A stretch of 64,000 nucleotides of DNA from assembly GCA_021799035.1 (NCBI GenBank), contig JAJZBG010000009.1, positions 1 through 64,000 of the forward strand. The letters run 5' to 3'. A program made the translations under genes and the position numbers. The notes under the pieces were generated by a model that saw nothing but the letters and a program-made list of their open reading frames with translations, had not been told where the DNA came from and made no database searches. Positions 18,778 through 48,320 of the stretch are shown here, piece by piece. The number at the start of each line of letters is the position of its first letter. Within the stretch, counting starts at the first letter, position 1. This stretch comes from Actinomycetes bacterium. GTDB lineage: Bacteria > Actinomycetota > Acidimicrobiia > Acidimicrobiales > Acidimicrobiaceae.

Positions 18778-19503
18778 TCACAACCATGCAGGCAAGGCTG
18801 GTGCGACTCCCCCTGGCGCATCAAAAGATAGGCCCTCGCCTTTGCTCCTTCCTACCAACCACGCGAGAAGCTCCGACTCGTCTCCTGCCACTCTGGCCCC
18901 TTTTTCACCTCTTGCCGTGCTCCAGCTCTTCGTGGTGTCAACTGCGATCAGCTGCAACCCAGGCGTACCTTCGCGAGCCCCAAGACTAGCCACGACATCA
19001 TCCAGCAGCGCGCTCAAAAGAGGTTCTGAGAAGCGGGAAAACGTTATCCCAACAGCCAAGTCGACTGCATGAATCCATACCTCTCTTATCCTGATCCAAA
19101 CCGCCTCAGAGGCAGGGATGTCGCGTCCTCGAGCGCTTTTCACCTTGAAATCCAATTGTTCGGGTGTCAGCGACTTGATTGCCGAGGAGAACTCCTGACT
19201 GGCGGAGCCAAAGTCCTCGATCAGAAATTGCAGACTCTGCTTGGCGCCCTCGTCTATATCCCTTGCCCTCTGATCGTTGTTCTGATACATGGGACTTTCG
19301 ACTCCAGTCCGAGCCCAAGTGGCAAGGTTCACAAGCGCTCGAGCGTTTGAATTCACATGTGCAATGAGCTGAGCCGTGTTCCAATCTGCCAGGGGGGTGG
19401 GCCTGTCATGGTCGCCAGCACCCAATTGGGACAGCCCTTCTGCAAAAAGGGAGGTCCCTTCATCCATCCAATTCAAATGCGTGTGAAAAAGCTCTTTATC
19501 CAA
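18778..19503 (-). CDS. maleylpyruvate isomerase, mycothiol-dependent (DinB-like fold)
   Basis: This 241-residue protein converts maleylpyruvate to fumarylpyruvate, the third step of the gentisate pathway. The zinc ligands His49, Glu141 and His145 are visible in LIAHVNSN and REVWIHAVDL. Their 92 and 4 residue spacing matches the characterised Corynebacterium mycothiol-dependent isomerase as I remember it. An N-terminal four-helix DinB-like domain is followed by an alpha/beta C-terminal domain. It lies 44 bases after the fumarylpyruvate-hydrolase-like gene on the same strand. It implies that the cell makes mycothiol. Confidence 0.88.
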   Translation of the reverse strand: MDKELFHTHLNWMDEGTSLFAEGLSQLGAGDHDRPTPLADWNTAQLIAHVNSNARALVNLATWARTGVESPMYQNNDQRARDIDEGAKQSLQFLIEDFGSASQEFSSAIKSLTPEQLDFKVKSARGRDIPASEAVWIRIREVWIHAVDLAVGITFSRFSEPLLSALLDDVVASLGAREGTPGLQLIAVDTTKSWSTARGEKGARVAGDESELLAWLVGRSKGEGLSFDAPGGVAPALPAWL

Positions 19504-19547
19504 ATTCTATGATTCCTTTGCCGCCTGGAAGAAATGGCTGAAAAAGA

Positions 19548-20372
19548 TCAGGCACTCTTGCAAATATTCCTAAGCTCGCCAATCCCTTCGATCTTTGTCA
19601 CAAGGACGTCTCCTTCGCGAAGGTAGCGCTGGGGATTGCGCGCATGGCCAACGCCTCCGGGCGTCCCCGTGGAGATGATGTCTCCAGGTCGCAAGGTCAG
19701 GATCTTCGAGATGTATGAGACTAGGTGAAGCGGGTTGAACAAGAGGTCTGACGTCGCTGCGTGCTGAACCTGCTCTCCGTTCACCTCGCAACTCAGTTCC
19801 AAACCTTGCTCGATTACCTGATCGACATCCATTGCTACCAAGTGTGGTCCCACAGGAGTTGAACCTTCAAATGTCTTGCCCTGAAGCCATTGAAGGGTGC
19901 GATTTTGCCAATCCCTGGCAGTCACATCGTTGATAACCGTAAATCCCGCGATAGCATCGCGAGCCTCGGTTTCAGAGCAGTTCCGGACAGTCTTTCCCAC
20001 TATTACCCCAAGCTCAGCCTCCCAGTCGAACATTTGAGACTCAGGCGACAAAAGAATGGCGTCGTTGGCACCTATAAGCGCGTCGGTGAACTTTGCGAAC
20101 AAAGTTGGATAACTTGGAAGTTCCCTCCCCATTTCTTTGATGTGATTCTTGTAGTTGTGGCCAACGCAGAGAATCTTCGAGGGGGACGGTATCAGAGTTG
20201 CATAGTCCAAATTGTCGGATTCATAGTAGACACCCGTCTTCTTTAGGTCGCTCTGCCACGATGGATTCGCTAGGAGCTCACCAACGTCTCTGTAATCAAG
20301 TTCTTCGGCTTCCTCGCCATCGATCATCACTGCCCTAGTCCCCGAGGGAACTCTTATCGTAGCTAACCTCAT
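19548..20372 (-). CDS. fumarylacetoacetate hydrolase-family enzyme, probable fumarylpyruvate hydrolase
   Basis: This 274-residue FAH-fold enzyme would cleave fumarylpyruvate to fumarate and pyruvate, the last gentisate step. GHNYKNH (71-77), the metal ligands Glu118 and Glu120 (DWEAELG) and Asp149 (NDVTARD), and STGTPGGVGHARNP near the C-terminus are all present. ATG 20372 is chosen because AAGGA precedes it and the family starts at MRLATI. It lies between the dioxygenase and the isomerase, which is why I favour this copy over the second FAH gene for the hydrolase step. Confidence 0.82.
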   Translation of the reverse strand: MRLATIRVPSGTRAVMIDGEEAEELDYRDVGELLANPSWQSDLKKTGVYYESDNLDYATLIPSPSKILCVGHNYKNHIKEMGRELPSYPTLFAKFTDALIGANDAILLSPESQMFDWEAELGVIVGKTVRNCSETEARDAIAGFTVINDVTARDWQNRTLQWLQGKTFEGSTPVGPHLVAMDVDQVIEQGLELSCEVNGEQVQHAATSDLLFNPLHLVSYISKILTLRPGDIISTGTPGGVGHARNPQRYLREGDVLVTKIEGIGELRNICKSA

Positions 20373-20548
20373 AGTCCTTCCCAATCTCTTTCCGTATCCG
20401 CTTATACGTTGTCAATAGCCCTCTCAGCAGCGCGGCCAAGACTTGTTCAATGTCGTTTTATGCATCTGCAATGGCCAAATTACCTTCCTCGCACAGAAGA
20501 TAAACCTGCAGCTTCAGATGAAAACCGCAGGCGAACCAGCACAAGCCG

Positions 20549-21610
20549 CTAGTCCAGGAGTTCCTCCCTGGCAAGTCCGAGCTTCTCGAACACTGGCGCA
20601 TCAGAGGTGCAAAAGAAATCGGCGTCCTGTGTAGCTTCTATCGTAAGCGAACACCAAGATGGCACGGCAAACATATCTCCTTCATCTAAGTGAAAGTGCT
20701 CGTCGCCTATCGTGGCAACGGCTGAGCCCCTGAACGTCACCCACACGGATGAGCCATTTCTACGATGTTTGCGGGTCTTGGAGCCAGCGAGCACACGATG
20801 CATGGAACAGCGCATCGTCGGCATCACGTCAACTCCCCGGGTCGGGTCTACGAATCTCAGAGAAGCTCTTCCATTGCCAGACATTTCCACCAGCCGAGAC
20901 AAAGCGCGGTCGGTGTCTTTCCAACGATAGGCAAACAACGGCGAATAGGGCATCTCCTCGATCTGACCAAAAGGAACGAGTCCCGAACTGGTGCCATAGG
21001 TGAGTTCCGAATTGGAGATCGGATCCACCGCCCTGTTAACCATCTGATCAGGACCATTTTCAAAAAAGACTGCATCTAAGGATCTTGCTAACGGCAGATC
21101 AAGAGCATCGAACCAGATCATCGGGGACTTCCCGGGGTTATGATGCTCGTGCCAAGACCAGCTAGGAGTGAGTACAAGATCTCCTGGCTCCATTGGCACG
21201 GGATCGCCATTCACCAAAGTCCAAACACCAGAACCTTCGATGACGAATCTCAGCGCAGCAGGCGTATGCCGGTGAGCTGGTGCGACTTCTCCAGGTCCAA
21301 GGTATTGCACTGCACCCCAAAGAGTTTGAGTTGCATAGGGCTGACCAGCAAGGCCTGGATTCGATAGGGATAGAACTCTCCGGTCCCCTCCTCTATCGAT
21401 TGGAATCAGCTCACCGGAACGCTCAGCCAATTCCTTGAGGGTCTTCCACTTCCAGGCAAAGGGAACGGCGGCCAGTGGTGGCTCCTTTGGCATGATTCCC
21501 TTTTGAACCCAGAGCGGTTGCAGATCTGCTTCTGCGACTGACTCATAGAATTCATTCACCTCATTTTTCTTGGGCATCCCATCGGGAGCCGTGAATTTTG
21601 TACTTGCCAT
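20549..21610 (-). CDS. gentisate 1,2-dioxygenase
   Basis: This 353-residue bicupin opens the gentisate ring to maleylpyruvate using Fe(II) and O2. The N-terminal cupin has His113 and His115 (APAHRHT) and His154 (WSWHEHH). This 2 and 39 residue spacing is the one I recall for iron ligands of characterised gentisate dioxygenases. ALRFVIEG and LVLTPSWSW are family-typical. A second cupin follows from about residue 250 (MHRVLAGSKTRKHRRNG). ATG 21610 follows AGGAGGAAAT. Salicylate or 1-hydroxy-2-naphthoate dioxygenase activity in the same family is an alternative, but the neighbours favour gentisate. Confidence 0.88.
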   Translation of the reverse strand: MASTKFTAPDGMPKKNEVNEFYESVAEADLQPLWVQKGIMPKEPPLAAVPFAWKWKTLKELAERSGELIPIDRGGDRRVLSLSNPGLAGQPYATQTLWGAVQYLGPGEVAPAHRHTPAALRFVIEGSGVWTLVNGDPVPMEPGDLVLTPSWSWHEHHNPGKSPMIWFDALDLPLARSLDAVFFENGPDQMVNRAVDPISNSELTYGTSSGLVPFGQIEEMPYSPLFAYRWKDTDRALSRLVEMSGNGRASLRFVDPTRGVDVMPTMRCSMHRVLAGSKTRKHRRNGSSVWVTFRGSAVATIGDEHFHLDEGDMFAVPSWCSLTIEATQDADFFCTSDAPVFEKLGLAREELLD

Positions 21611-21785
21611 GTCGTATTTCCTCCTGACTGCGTATCCTTGCCTGACCTTATTTTGAAACCGAAATGAGACTTGAATGCTTTTTCACGTTTGACCTTGTGA
21701 GCGCCCTCCGGCCAGAAAGCAGCGCTGTTCACCTAGACCCTTTTAACCCCTGCATGAAGTCGCCCCTAACCTCAACACAGTTCGA

Positions 21786-22688
21786 TCAGCCTGACTGCTG
21801 ACTCGACAGTTGGTTGGGTACAGAAGAACCTCCCCTCGTAACGGAGAACGTCGCCCCTAAGTCACTCACAGAAACACTGAGGCGGCCCACTCTTGAGATC
21901 TCCACGACAATCTTGTCCCCATCTGCGAGTTGGCCGACGCCCTTCGGGGTTCCCGTGGAGATGACATCTCCTGGGAAAAGTGTCATTACCGAAGAGACGT
22001 AAGCCACCAGTTCCGGAACGCCCCAGATAAGATCAGAGACTCGGGCATCCTGCCTGAGGCTACCGTTGACCCAACAGCGAAGCTCGAGGTCGTCGAGGGA
22101 TCCTACCTCGTCAGACGTGATAACCCATGGACCCATCGGGGTGAAGGTGTCAAAAGATTTTCGAGTCGAACGGTCTTCCCCACCCCGCATCGTGATGTCC
22201 AACAGAACGCTGTAACCGAAAATGTACTCGTCTGCCTCCTCGACCTTGACATTTCGTGCTTGCTTTCCGATCACGAAGCAAAGCTCCCCCTCCTGGTCGA
22301 ATCTCCGATTGCTATAGGGCAATCGTACCGTACCGCCTTCCCCTATTAGAGAGGAGGGGGCCTTGAGGAAAACGCCCAGGGAGTCAATGTGACTTAGCTG
22401 TTGCATCTCCTCCATGTGATCGATGTAGTTGACTGGAGCTGCGACAATCTTGGTTGGGTCGCTCACTGGCGCAGAAAGAACCAGGGAGTCGAAGGCGACA
22501 CCGCCGCCACTGCGCTCTCTCTCCGAAAGCTGATCCCGAAGGCCGTCATAACCTTGAATGATCCTCCGCAAGGCTCCCTTTCCAGGTGCGAGATCACTCG
22601 GAATCAGGTCTGTCACATCTGAAATTGTCCCGTCGCGACATACTATGCCGGCTCGAGAACCCCCATCACCAAAGCTCACCAACCGCAA
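21786..22688 (-). CDS. second fumarylacetoacetate hydrolase-family enzyme
   Basis: This 300-residue FAH-fold protein has metal ligands Glu133, Glu135 (DQEGELC) and Asp164 (LDITMRG), and a C-terminal STGTPKGVG. It is clearly distinct from the neighbouring FAH gene and has a family-typical MRLVSFG start at TTG 22688, preceded by GGAAGGGGGG. Family members hydrolyse or decarboxylate acylpyruvates. It could be an alternative fumarylpyruvate hydrolase, a maleylpyruvate hydrolase or a 2-oxo-acid decarboxylase; the sequence does not decide. It lies 57 bases after the decarboxylase-like gene. Confidence 0.8.
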   Translation of the reverse strand: MRLVSFGDGGSRAGIVCRDGTISDVTDLIPSDLAPGKGALRRIIQGYDGLRDQLSERERSGGGVAFDSLVLSAPVSDPTKIVAAPVNYIDHMEEMQQLSHIDSLGVFLKAPSSLIGEGGTVRLPYSNRRFDQEGELCFVIGKQARNVKVEEADEYIFGYSVLLDITMRGGEDRSTRKSFDTFTPMGPWVITSDEVGSLDDLELRCWVNGSLRQDARVSDLIWGVPELVAYVSSVMTLFPGDVISTGTPKGVGQLADGDKIVVEISRVGRLSVSVSDLGATFSVTRGGSSVPNQLSSQQSG

Positions 22689-22745
22689 TGGAACCCCCCT
22701 TCCATACACGTTCCGCTCAGAGCCTCTCCACCTGCTCCAACCCAG

Positions 22746-23729
22746 CTATATCAACACAAGCTCATGAGTCTCAGGGGCAAAAAGCTCTTCAACTTCGTAT
22801 CTCTTATTTGCAAGTCCTTGGTCGTAAGAGTATTTCAAGAACACCTCAAGAACATGGCGGTTGGCATCGATGCCATAGGGCCAATAGTCCTCACCCATGA
22901 TCTCTTTGGTCATGCGAATGTGCTGGATGCTCCATGGAAGCATGTGAATGAATGCAGCACTCTCCTCAAGCCTCCTGCTAAGCACCGACTTCGCCTCCAA
23001 AAAGGCCTTATACATAGAACCTGCGATCCACTTGTCATTTTCGTAGACATCTCGCCTCATCACAACAGTGTGCATCACGGGGAATATGCCAGTTTCTTTG
23101 AAATACTCGATTTCTGCCTCGGGCGAATCTCCCCATAACCTTGCGACATTTGGGTTCTTATCGAGGAACGGCTGCGGTGATCTCGGGCTATAGAGAGCTT
23201 GGATCTCTCCTGAGACAAGCATCTCAGAAAGGGTTCGGTCGTCTGGAATTGGAATGATCTCAACCCCTTTGGGTTGGATTTGTATCTTCTCATATCGTCC
23301 GGGATCATGGAGACCGCCAGTCCGATAGCTAACTGAACTGACTGGCACGCCGTAATAATCCTCAAGCATCCCTCTGATCCAAACGGCAGCAGTCACCTGA
23401 TACTCCGGAACTCCAACCACTTTGCCTATGAGATCGGTCGGCTTGGTAATGCCGCTGTTGGTGTTGATATAGATACCCGTGTGCCTGAAAGCGCGAGATG
23501 GAAACACCGGGAGGGCAATGAAGCGATCTGAAGTATTGCGACTTAGAACGTAGGAAGAGAACGACATCTCCGACATGTCGAATTCGCCGTTGCGGGCCAT
23601 GCGAAAAAAGGTCTCCTCTATCGGAAGGCACAGATAGTTGAGGTCTATGCCTTCGGGTACGACCCTTCCATCTGCTAGTGCTGCAGTTCTGTCATAGTCC
23701 CAGCAGGCCAGCGTAAGTCTTCGTTTCAC
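22746..23729 (-). CDS. 4,5-dihydroxyphthalate decarboxylase-like protein
   Basis: This 327-residue protein resembles the Pht5 family: ACWDYDRTAAL at the start, RHTGIYIN, VVGVPEYQVTAAVWIRGML and a LYSPRSPQPF segment. The family has the fold of periplasmic NMT1-like binding proteins but is cytoplasmic, and this protein also lacks a signal peptide. Known members decarboxylate 4,5-dihydroxyphthalate. I chose GTG 23729 because GGAGGA lies just upstream; the frame extends to 23756. Position in the operon suggests it makes a hydroxybenzoate for the gentisate route. A hydroxyphthalate substrate is an inference. Confidence 0.75.
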   Translation of the reverse strand: MKRRLTLACWDYDRTAALADGRVVPEGIDLNYLCLPIEETFFRMARNGEFDMSEMSFSSYVLSRNTSDRFIALPVFPSRAFRHTGIYINTNSGITKPTDLIGKVVGVPEYQVTAAVWIRGMLEDYYGVPVSSVSYRTGGLHDPGRYEKIQIQPKGVEIIPIPDDRTLSEMLVSGEIQALYSPRSPQPFLDKNPNVARLWGDSPEAEIEYFKETGIFPVMHTVVMRRDVYENDKWIAGSMYKAFLEAKSVLSRRLEESAAFIHMLPWSIQHIRMTKEIMGEDYWPYGIDANRHVLEVFLKYSYDQGLANKRYEVEELFAPETHELVLI

Positions 23730-23793
23730 ATATTCCTCCAAAGATAACCTGGGCACCCCTCTTTGTCCCAGCTATTGCAAAGTTCTCTCAACT

Positions 23794-24237
23794 TTAAGAT
23801 CCGTTCAGCCCTCTGCGAGCGACCTCAAAAAGCAGACGGGAAAAGTCCTGGCGATCCTGCTGACTCATCGAGCCAAGCAGAACTTCACCAACCTGCATTA
23901 CTTTCGGCACCACCATTGCCCGGGTCTGGCTTCCCTTCTCGCTCAGACGAAGAAGCCATCTCCTGCCGTCTGTTGCGTCTCTAACCCGTTCTATCAGACC
24001 CTTTTGTTTGAGCCGAGCAACAATATCCTGGCATGTCGAAGTGTCCAAGGAGGCAAGCTGGCTCAGGGTCGTCTGATCTATTCCGGGCTTATCGTGCAAC
24101 ACATTCAACACCGCAAATTGAGAGCTGGTGAGATCCTCTCCCACGACTGATGCCCATACCGAGGTGTGAACCTGCTGCGCCCTTCTTATGAGATGACCGG
24201 GGGCGTTAGCCAAATCAAATTCTACGTCGTTTCGCAT
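23794..24237 (-). CDS. MarR-family transcriptional regulator
   Basis: This 147-residue winged-helix protein has a DQTTLSQLASLDTSTCQDIVARL helix-turn-helix region and the GLIERVRDATDGRRWLLRLSEKG wing, which define MarR regulators that often release DNA on binding aromatic acids. It sits between the monooxygenase and the rest of the catabolic genes, co-directional with them, and is the likely local regulator. Cys near residue 69 lies in the recognition helix region. A palindrome upstream of the monooxygenase is a candidate site. Confidence 0.85.
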   Translation of the reverse strand: MRNDVEFDLANAPGHLIRRAQQVHTSVWASVVGEDLTSSQFAVLNVLHDKPGIDQTTLSQLASLDTSTCQDIVARLKQKGLIERVRDATDGRRWLLRLSEKGSQTRAMVVPKVMQVGEVLLGSMSQQDRQDFSRLLFEVARRGLNGS

Positions 24238-24493: not shown

Positions 24494-25696
24494 CTAGGGT
24501 CTCACCTCCAGCAGATCCCTCTTGCCGTATAGCCACTCGATATGGGAGTGGTCGTCTGGATCTCTGGTCTTGAAAAGTTCATCTCGCATCAGCCTTCCAG
24601 CACCGTCAATATGCCACATATCTCCCCAAAGTCGAGCGTTCCGCTGCACTCGCGCGGTACGTATCGTTCTTGCTCTTTCGTACATTGCCAGAGCCTCAGT
24701 TACATTCTTCGGTTCCCTGTCAAAGGCCATGCCAATCGCCTCGGCATCCTCAATCGCCTGACATGCGCCTTGCGCCAAATACTGCAGCATAGGGTGCGCG
24801 GCATCTCCTAAGAGCGTGATGTTGCCAATCGTCCATTTGTCTATCGGCTCGCGGTCGTACATCGGCCATCTGTGATCTCTCCCAAGAAGAGGCATTGCCG
24901 TTCTGATGTGCTCACACGTCACCGAGAGCTTCTCCTCAAGCTCCTCTGAGTTTCCCCAATCTTCCATGCCCTTCAGATATTGATCACTCTTGAACACAGC
25001 AACCTGGTTGTACAGATTTCCCGACCGCAGTGGGTACTGTACGTAATGCAGGTTGGGTCCGATCCAGGCGACAACCTCGTCCAAAGGGGCATGTGCTGTA
25101 GCCCTGTCGGTGGGTACCGTTCCGCGATAAGACACATATCCAGAATTCACCGGAGCGTCGTCGCTGAACTTCTTCCGGACCGTTGACCACAAGCCATCTG
25201 CCCCTATTAGAGCCTTTCCCCTGTAGCTCGTTCCGTCTGCGCAGACGGCGATCACCCCGTCAGGCTGATTTTCGACTTCCCTGATCTCCTTGCCGGGCAG
25301 CAATTCAATCGATGGTTGCTCCTGGCATCCCTGCAGCAGGATTGTCAACAGGTCGTTGCGATGCATAACAACATACGGTGCGCCATATCTTTGGATAAAT
25401 CCTTCACCAAGGTCAAGATATGAAAGATTCTCATCGGTAAGTGCCGTCTTGAGCCTCAGTCGATTGGGGAACACCCCCACCTCGCGTATCTTGTCCATCA
25501 ACCCGAGCGATGTCAGAACCCGCGTCGCATTCGGGGCAAGCTGGAGACCTGCTCCTATCTCCACAAACTGCGCAGCCTTCTCGAGCACGACCACATCGTG
25601 GCCAGACCTCGACAACCTCAAAGCGGCGGCCAAGCCTCCTATTCCACCACCTACAACCAAAATTGGATCCTTGGACCCCCCAGTTCCGTTAGCCAT
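24494..25696 (-). CDS. FAD-dependent aromatic hydroxylase, probable 3-hydroxybenzoate 6-hydroxylase
   Basis: This 400-residue class A flavoprotein monooxygenase would hydroxylate 3-hydroxybenzoate to gentisate with NAD(P)H. It has the dinucleotide motif VVGGGIGGLAAALRL at 14-28, the DG motif in IGADGLWSTVR, and the GD motif with HPMLQYLAQGACQAIEDA, which is characteristic of 3-hydroxybenzoate/salicylate hydroxylases. ATG 25696 is supported by GGAAGGTGG upstream; the frame runs further to 25780 without a site. Salicylate 5- or other hydroxybenzoate hydroxylation is possible, but the downstream gentisate genes favour a gentisate-forming enzyme. It is the first gene of the cluster. Confidence 0.85.
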   Translation of the reverse strand: MANGTGGSKDPILVVGGGIGGLAAALRLSRSGHDVVVLEKAAQFVEIGAGLQLAPNATRVLTSLGLMDKIREVGVFPNRLRLKTALTDENLSYLDLGEGFIQRYGAPYVVMHRNDLLTILLQGCQEQPSIELLPGKEIREVENQPDGVIAVCADGTSYRGKALIGADGLWSTVRKKFSDDAPVNSGYVSYRGTVPTDRATAHAPLDEVVAWIGPNLHYVQYPLRSGNLYNQVAVFKSDQYLKGMEDWGNSEELEEKLSVTCEHIRTAMPLLGRDHRWPMYDREPIDKWTIGNITLLGDAAHPMLQYLAQGACQAIEDAEAIGMAFDREPKNVTEALAMYERARTIRTARVQRNARLWGDMWHIDGAGRLMRDELFKTRDPDDHSHIEWLYGKRDLLEVRP

Positions 25697-25747
25697 ATAA
25701 ACGTCCACCTTCCAAACACATCGCTTGCAATCTGGCAAACTAATCCG

Positions 25748-25757
25748 TATACGTATA
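25748..25757. promoter_or_regulatory. palindrome and AT-rich promoter region upstream of the monooxygenase
   Basis: TATACGTATA is a perfect 10-base palindrome 51 bases upstream of the monooxygenase start. It sits next to a TTTATA-like -10 element on the minus strand, with TTGTGA 17 bases upstream of it. A MarR dimer could bind here. The assignment rests on position alone. Confidence 0.35.
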
Positions 25758-26077
25758 AAGCTTATAGAGACATTAGTCACAAAATCGCCCAGAAGTAAAG
25801 CACCAATATTTCAGTTTTTAAAGAAAAAATTAATTCTCTTTTTAGTTTTGATGAGAGTGAAAAGCACGTATCGCTTGAGCTGCAGAGATAGGCGGGAACA
25901 AATCGCTGAGTACGCACCGATTATTCTCGGCACCCACGTTTAACCCTTTTGATTCCACTGTCGAACGATTTGACAGATGACAGTCGCCTACGCTGTGCTG
26001 TAACTTCGATGAAGTATCCAACTCGACATATTGCGGTTATTGTTTGCGTGTCAATCCTCAAGATCTTCAAGGAGTAG
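25758..26077. other. divergent AT-rich intergenic region
   Basis: This gap separates the minus-strand aromatic cluster from the plus-strand sigma factor. It contains a distinctly AT-rich block at about 25795-25860. I found no small gene with a ribosome site. Promoters for both directions are expected here; only the monooxygenase-side element could be proposed. Confidence 0.4.
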
Positions 26078-47421: not shown

Positions 47422-48320
47422 GCGCCCCGCTCCCAAAAACCTGGTCCGATTGGCTCATCGTATCCAGCTTGGGCCCGCAGATAGCCCTGAGAGTCGATAT
47501 ACAGCGGGAGTTGAGGCAAAGGCCTCGGTGCGGGTCCAAATACCGGATTCGCTCCCGTCATGACATCGAACAACGACTGGTGGCAAGGGCACAGCAGCTG
47601 CTGAGTCAGCTCCTGATAAAGGCCAACCGGACAACCTGCATGCGTGCACACCTTGGAGTAAGCCAGATAACCCTGAGGACCCCAGGTCTCGCGACCCGGC
47701 TTAGTGACAATGTCTTGAAAGGATGGCCTTATGAGAATGGTCTGGGATATCGCCCCTCCTGGGTGGCCGTCTGGAAAAACCGTAAGGACTCCTCCCACCT
47801 CCAAGTCCGTCGCACGCACTTTCGTTCCATCCGCCTTCACAAGGGCCGAACCCTTTTTCCAGTTGGTGACGTAAAGCATCTTCTTGGGCTGAGGCCCGAG
47901 AGAGCGGATGAAAGGAAAGAGCGTGATTATCCCGAACGCGCCAACCGCAGCGCCCAACATTTTGACGAGGAAGCTTCTCCTCTGAATCTGGTTCGCACCG
48001 CGCTCGAGAGACTCAACGAAGGCTTCACGCTCCGATTCGGGACTTTGAAGCTCTTCGCGCTCCTGGACATATGGCCCCTGGGGGACCAAGTACTTTCCCC
48101 AGGAGACGATCCCAAATCCAAGGCCTCCAAGTGCGATAAATAAGAGCGCCCCTTCAACTTGAGTCTGACCGCCCTGCCAGTAGACGACTCCCAGCCCGAC
48201 AGTAGCCAGAAATGAGAGCAAGAAACTGACTCCCACAACTCTCTCAAACCGCCGTTCAGATACCTTTATCAGGCGTTCCTTATCCTGGCTTTGTTTCAAT
48301 TCTGGAGTGGAGCTACTCAA
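47418..48320 (-). CDS. qcrA: Rieske iron-sulfur subunit of the bc1 complex
   Basis: This 300-residue protein has three N-terminal membrane helices (about 30-48, 56-75 and 119-137), as in actinobacterial Rieske subunits, and a C-terminal [2Fe-2S] domain. Its ligands are Cys225, His227, Cys244 and His247, with Cys230 and Cys246 forming the stabilising disulfide. It moves electrons from menaquinol to QcrC. It overlaps both neighbours by four bases. Confidence 0.95.
   Translation of the reverse strand: MSSSTPELKQSQDKERLIKVSERRFERVVGVSFLLSFLATVGLGVVYWQGGQTQVEGALLFIALGGLGFGIVSWGKYLVPQGPYVQEREELQSPESEREAFVESLERGANQIQRRSFLVKMLGAAVGAFGIITLFPFIRSLGPQPKKMLYVTNWKKGSALVKADGTKVRATDLEVGGVLTVFPDGHPGGAISQTILIRPSFQDIVTKPGRETWGPQGYLAYSKVCTHAGCPVGLYQELTQQLLCPCHQSLFDVMTGANPVFGPAPRPLPQLPLYIDSQGYLRAQAGYDEPIGPGFWERGA

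Follow-up and report, generated by a model that had tools for sequence, protein, structure and literature searches.

A Pht5-type decarboxylase gene within a gentisate cluster points to a possible side entry for hydroxylated phthalates

A gene of the 4,5-dihydroxyphthalate decarboxylase (Pht5) family lies among gentisate-pathway genes in a 64,000-nucleotide stretch of an Acidimicrobiaceae genome (assembly GCA_021799035.1, contig JAJZBG010000009.1); this whole stretch is hereafter called the window. What would such an enzyme contribute to a gentisate path? The earlier note had proposed that it feeds hydroxyphthalate-derived 3-hydroxybenzoate into the neighbouring genes, giving a gentisate route instead of the usual protocatechuate route. 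In its general form, the hydroxyphthalate-to-gentisate route appears plausible from the sequences; its support has grown, and we give it roughly an even chance. Family, gene context and recurrence speak for it, whereas the replacement of the protocatechuate route did not stand. Enzymes of this kind usually decarboxylate intermediates of phthalate degradation, and the position of the gene among those of another aromatic pathway hints at a side entry for hydroxylated phthalates.

The cluster consists of seven minus-strand genes arranged head to tail from 25780 down to 18778, the decarboxylase gene being the third (Table 1). Counted from the 25780 end, the intergenic gaps measure 256, 37, 36, 175, 164 and 44 bases.

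Table 1. Features of the gentisate-type cluster, in order of transcription
Feature	Position	Strand	Evidence
3-Hydroxybenzoate 6-hydroxylase-like FAD monooxygenase	24494..25780	-	NF006021 408 bits (cut-off 459); PDB 4bjy E 1.2e-99
MarR-family regulator	23794..24237	-	PF12802 2.5e-14
Shine-Dalgarno-like GGAGG	23735..23739	-	5 bases upstream of GTG at 23729
Pht5-type gene (4,5-dihydroxyphthalate decarboxylase family)	22746..23729	-	327 aa, GTG start at 23729
FAH-family protein, best match maleylpyruvate hydrolase	21786..22709	-	PDB 6jvv E 1.1e-58
Gentisate 1,2-dioxygenase-like bicupin	20549..21610	-	TIGR02272 277.7 bits (cut-off 442.1); PDB 3nst/2phd E about 1e-98
FAH-family protein, probable fumarylpyruvate hydrolase	19548..20384	-	PF01557 223 bits; PDB 6j57 E 1.6e-67; named by context
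Mycothiol-dependent maleylpyruvate isomerase-like protein	18778..19503	-	TIGR03083 113.8 bits (cut-off 50); PDB 2nsf E 4.1e-27

The open reading frame list extends the decarboxylase gene to 23756 (22746-23756, minus strand, 336 aa), an alternative, longer GTG start whose GAGGG directly abuts the start codon. Because its GGAGG is well placed, the GTG at 23729 is the better guess. The sole strong PDB match is 9jp7, '4,5-dihydroxyphthalate decarboxylase' (phmmer E 8.8e-80); residues 11-333 align with its residues 23-346, nearly full length, at 41.9% identity over 322 columns, and membership of the Pht5 family is thereby confirmed. A literature search on the 9JP7 structure found no paper. Profile searches against Pfam and NCBIfam gave no model above cut-off, with weak NMT1 and SBP matches, and an AlphaFold model from a shallow 11-row alignment reached pLDDT 37.2 and pTM 0.29. 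The family presumably consists of cofactor-free enzymes with a periplasmic-binding-protein-like fold. Many of the relatives among the plasmid matches listed are annotated as solute-binding proteins, but it is highly improbable that the window protein is one: the weak profile matches and a Tat-like signal in a Terriglobia relative would fit, but no signal sequence is seen by inspection, no ABC transporter gene adjoins the gene in the window's open reading frame list, and the protein shares 42% identity with a crystallised decarboxylase.

Conservation was assessed over 66 columns invariant in 13 reference members outside the window clade, which serve as a proxy for the catalytic residues. The window protein keeps 63 of these, compared with 59 in Arthrobacter zg-Y820, 59 in Microbacterium sediminis and 35-56 in seven paralogs of its own genome, and is the closest of the genome's eight copies to known Pht5 in these columns. 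By this proxy the Pht5 active-site residues, whose absence would have spoken against the earlier note, are largely in place. In a tree of 65 sequences, comprising decarboxylase matches with at least 270 aligned residues, the window protein groups with seven genus orthologs, Arthrobacter zg-Y820 and M. sediminis in one 10-row clade (98/91), and 9jp7 belongs to a separate 8-row clade (100/99); the window protein thus lies outside the narrow-sense Pht5 clade. Thirteen of the 51 polar or aromatic positions fixed in the 9jp7 clade are changed in it, including R158T and W156Y.

The first gene of the cluster encodes the neighbour that the earlier note had taken for a 3-hydroxybenzoate hydroxylase. 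NF006021 is its best-scoring model, yet the score remains below cut-off; its best PDB matches are the 4bjy-4bk3 set. The positions of Tyr105, His213 and Gln301 of the 4bjy enzyme, taken from variants 4bk3 (Tyr), 4bk1 (His) and 4bk2 (Gln), are all identical in the window protein, in favour of that identification. The same residues bear on a reversed order of steps, in which the FAD hydroxylase would act on a hydroxyphthalate first and the decarboxylase would then yield gentisate from, for example, 3,6-dihydroxyphthalate. The Pht5 family does act on dihydroxyphthalates, and the required genes are all adjacent; retention of the active-site residues of a 3-hydroxybenzoate enzyme, and the lack of precedent in the titles and abstract openings of the literature searched, make this order quite improbable.

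Downstream, the bicupin falls below the TIGR02272 cut-off, and the positions of His119, His121 and His160, which we take to be its three metal-binding histidines, are conserved. It is nearest to the 2phd/3nst group, which we assume to be salicylate 1,2-dioxygenase, and, like 3nst, has Ala where Gly106 would stand; at Ala85 it has Val. Despite the 2phd group providing its best PDB matches, its identification as a salicylate dioxygenase was rejected on account of the Ala at the Gly106 position, a change that presumably matters for salicylate use. The maleylpyruvate hydrolase-like FAH protein, together with the isomerase and fumarylpyruvate hydrolase pair, apparently makes up two parallel routes for finishing maleylpyruvate (18778-22709). 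Six queries for ring-hydroxylating oxygenase alpha subunits, which matched three positive-control loci, found none in the 64 kb window, in agreement with the earlier statement that no phthalate oxygenase is encoded there; the sole Rieske match in the window scores 32 bits (47505-47669).

As a tentative reading, which we place slightly short of an even chance, the window protein is a cytoplasmic Pht5-family enzyme that turns a monohydroxyphthalate (4- or 3-) into 3-hydroxybenzoate for the gentisate path. It would take one carboxylate off a monohydroxylated ortho-phthalate, most likely 4-hydroxyphthalate and possibly 3-hydroxyphthalate. A para hydroxyl eases benzoate decarboxylation, and judging from the structure of 4-hydroxyphthalate, the C1 carboxylate, para to the hydroxyl, would be lost to give 3-hydroxybenzoate. 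The neighbouring FAD monooxygenase would convert this to gentisate, the bicupin would open the ring to maleylpyruvate, and maleylpyruvate would then be hydrolysed directly (21786-22709) or be isomerised first (18778-19503) and hydrolysed as fumarylpyruvate (19548-20384). The steps past 3-hydroxybenzoate would follow known gentisate chemistry; the direction of flux and co-regulation by the MarR-family protein are inferred. For the first step, a passage of a review describes unspecific 4-hydroxyphthalate activity of the C. testosteroni enzyme (PMC13040137, citing Nakazawa and Hayashi, 1978), and a passage of a second paper gives 3-hydroxybenzoate as the product (PMC10773090, citing Nakazawa and Hayashi, 1978), as the earlier note had mentioned. 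Literature searches combining hydroxyphthalate with gentisate or 3-hydroxybenzoate, or gentisate with hydroxylase and phthalate, returned no such module in titles and abstract openings.

The nearest named kin found by searching with the genome are metagenome-assembled Actinomycetes/Acidimicrobiaceae, and their isolate names lead us to guess at mine-type sites. The rest of the genome (2.47 Mb assembly, 94.9% complete) shows how it may otherwise handle phthalates. On contig C11, genes for dioxygenase alpha and beta subunits, a dehydrogenase and a reductase are 67-68, 64-67, 67-70 and 44-50% identical, respectively, to those of six phthalate-type operons (RHA1 pRHL2, Sphe3, Arthrobacter 68b, M. 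paraoxydans, Citricoccus and M. sediminis; for the dehydrogenase, two of the six gave a match). We take the RHA1 operon to degrade phthalate. The genome thus does encode phthalate-type ring-hydroxylating oxygenases, all of them outside the window. Contig C89 carries two adjacent genes for PhtC, the 3,4-dihydroxyphthalate decarboxylase (L113, 2259-3821; 291 and 264 bits, cut-off 200), which adjoin pcaH, pcaG and a pcaB-like gene; CoA-transferase-like genes lie close by. Adjacent PhtC pairs above cut-off are also found in seven other genus genomes. The idea that the genome is unable to use protocatechuate was rejected, PcaHG being present. With a protocatechuate route and its own decarboxylase PhtC in place, the window copy is not needed to bring phthalate to protocatechuate, and a gentisate route would open a further entry rather than take over from the existing one. 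In addition, a search of the genome for 4,5-dihydrodiol dehydrogenase gave no near match (best 32% over part of the query), while seven decarboxylase-linked genes elsewhere share 39-50% identity with that query; the classical pair is therefore an unlikely source of 4,5-dihydroxyphthalate.

These findings weigh on the simplest alternative, that of an ordinary 4,5-dihydroxyphthalate decarboxylase making protocatechuate and standing among gentisate genes by happenstance. Such a role would agree with the 42% identity to 9jp7, with the phthalate-type operons in which KA1 and other close relatives are found, and with the pcaHG, pcaB-like and CoA-transferase-like genes of the genome. It is made unlikely by the missing near match to 4,5-dihydrodiol dehydrogenase, by a 3,4-route that PhtC already serves, and by a gene order that is fixed across the genus and a pairing repeated in other lineages.

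Indeed, the cluster's gene order is kept in all seven same-genus loci, as far as contigs reach, which makes the cluster more than chance. Beyond the genus, the comparison of neighbourhoods covered 34 stretches that contain a family member (L015, L017-L020, L049-L057, L085-L099 and L100-L104). These are not independent: L053 and L054 are almost identical in this region, and a single genome supplied each of the sets L086/L096, L089/L094 and L097-L099. Pairing of the decarboxylase with a 3-hydroxybenzoate hydroxylase of more than 200 bits occurs in three (L051, L094 and L100), on different branches of the decarboxylase tree, a count that leaves out weak hydroxylase matches of 52 and 71 bits (L020 and L090); the other 31 are without the hydroxylase. 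For plasmid relatives, the listing covers 60 of 196 records that match the decarboxylase. High-GC neighbours were re-read by tblastn and codon-position GC, as longest-ORF calling there gave spurious genes.

The Arthrobacter zg-Y820 plasmid carries genes for an FAH protein, a gentisate dioxygenase-like protein (TIGR02272 308.6 bits), the hydroxylase (NF006021 365.9 bits), the decarboxylase and an isomerase. Cupriavidus pBB2 encodes a dioxygenase, an FAH protein, the hydroxylase (416 bits), an MFS protein and a decarboxylase that is a member of the 9jp7 clade, so decarboxylase and hydroxylase seem to have been brought together on two or more occasions. Actinomycete G346 has the hydroxylase (366 bits), a dehydrogenase, the decarboxylase, dioxygenase subunits and an FAH protein within 8 kb, and, further along the same contig, two gentisate dioxygenase-like genes at distances of about 12 and 20 kb from its decarboxylase gene. 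Two plasmid loci chosen by their 3-hydroxybenzoate hydroxylase both lack the decarboxylase. Six queries that matched three control loci found no ring-oxygenase homologue in either Cupriavidus pBB2 (49 kb searched) or the Arthrobacter plasmid (44 kb searched), and these modules therefore probably receive an already hydroxylated acid. The nearest relatives keep different company: the M. sediminis gene, of the same clade, is part of a phthalate 3,4-dioxygenase-type operon that also contains PhtC-type (class II aldolase) genes, that of G373 stands beside LigK-like and amidohydrolase genes (read by eye), and that of KA1 is in a phthalate-type operon.

Conversion of a monohydroxyphthalate to 3-hydroxybenzoate is thus supported by the 9jp7 match, the kept columns, the intact hydroxylase positions, the conserved gene order and the recurrent pairing, and also by a genome that reaches protocatechuate via PhtC and has no near 4,5-dihydrodiol dehydrogenase. 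Counting against it are the phthalate/protocatechuate-type loci of the nearest sisters, the stretches of relatives without hydroxylase, the positions differing from the 9jp7 clade, and PcaHG, which could use protocatechuate if it were made.

Eight Pht5-family members occur in the genome (contigs C8, C10, C16, C27, C38, C55, C63 and C81), and the family is present in nine of nine genus genomes; it is rare in the class (6 of 296 genomes drawn, own included) and in a sample of the phylum (10 of 396 at E <= 1e-60, own included). The C63 paralog stands beside ring-hydroxylating dioxygenase subunits, that of C81 beside a Rieske oxygenase and a LigK aldolase (above cut-off), and that of C16 (L024, 6973-10249) adjoins genes for an FAH protein and for a dioxygenase-like bicupin, whose nearest models are those of 5-aminosalicylate/gentisate dioxygenase. 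The C10 copy has an FAD hydroxylase as neighbour, C38 a UbiD-family gene and C8 a dehydrogenase-like gene; C55 has no evident partner. Eight divergent copies, most with different catabolic neighbours, suggest substrate diversification in the family, and the substrate may accordingly be another hydroxylated aromatic dicarboxylate, such as a hydroxyisophthalate or hydroxypyridine dicarboxylate, ending in 3-hydroxybenzoate/gentisate-type chemistry. The Cupriavidus and Arthrobacter modules, with no ring oxygenase match nearby, would also be consistent with this; since the window copy is, in conserved columns, the one closest to known Pht5, we regard such a substrate as unlikely.

For a hydroxyphthalate substrate, a possible if rather improbable source is the cell's own phthalate metabolism, with the cluster acting as a salvage branch for by-products of the phthalate 3,4-dioxygenase. 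Phthalate cis-dihydrodiols dehydrate to hydroxyphthalates, a reaction favoured by acid. Those formed by the 3,4-dioxygenase would dehydrate spontaneously to 3- and 4-hydroxyphthalate, a dead end for PhtC; the Pht5-type enzyme would convert the by-product to 3-hydroxybenzoate, which the gentisate genes would then consume. Salvage would fit the place of the same-clade M. sediminis gene in a 3,4-dioxygenase-type operon with PhtC-type genes. It would also fit the co-occurrence of the three components in most of the nine genus genomes: the window decarboxylase ortholog, the C11 dioxygenase ortholog (at least 82% identity) and PhtC above cut-off are each found in eight, and G301 (79% complete) is without the first two.

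The window protein resembles Pht5 (PDB 9jp7) in its near full-length alignment, identity and conserved columns; it differs in its separate clade, its changed positions and its gentisate instead of phthalate/protocatechuate neighbours. A classical Pht5 operon would include phthalate 4,5-dioxygenase and 4,5-dihydrodiol dehydrogenase; the six queries found no ring oxygenase in the window, and the genome gave no near match to the dehydrogenase. The 3-hydroxybenzoate/gentisate cluster of the Alicyclobacillus dauci plasmid shares the hydroxylase, gentisate dioxygenase-like and FAH hydrolase genes, but that stretch is without a Pht5-type gene, whereas the window cluster has one built in, plus a maleylpyruvate hydrolase-like gene. 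The Gram-positive phthalate 3,4-dioxygenase operon, as in Rhodococcus RHA1 pRHL2, has its counterpart on C11 (68% identity for alpha, 67% for beta, 67% for the dehydrogenase and 50% for the reductase), with PhtC on C89; it uses PhtC, a class II aldolase-type decarboxylase, feeds protocatechuate and is unlinked to the window cluster.

If the proposed route is true, phthalate-type acids would have a second exit via 3-hydroxybenzoate and gentisate, and genes in clusters of this kind that are annotated 'ABC transporter substrate-binding protein' would encode catabolic enzymes. Furthermore, eight paralogs in one 2.5 Mb genome offer a natural set for learning how substrates change in a decarboxylase family. 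The location of family members may also vary: unlike the window protein, a Terriglobia Pht5-like protein (L017, 7908-8987) begins with a Tat-like twin-arginine signal, RRKLLSAASAGAALVAAP, from which some members may be exported.
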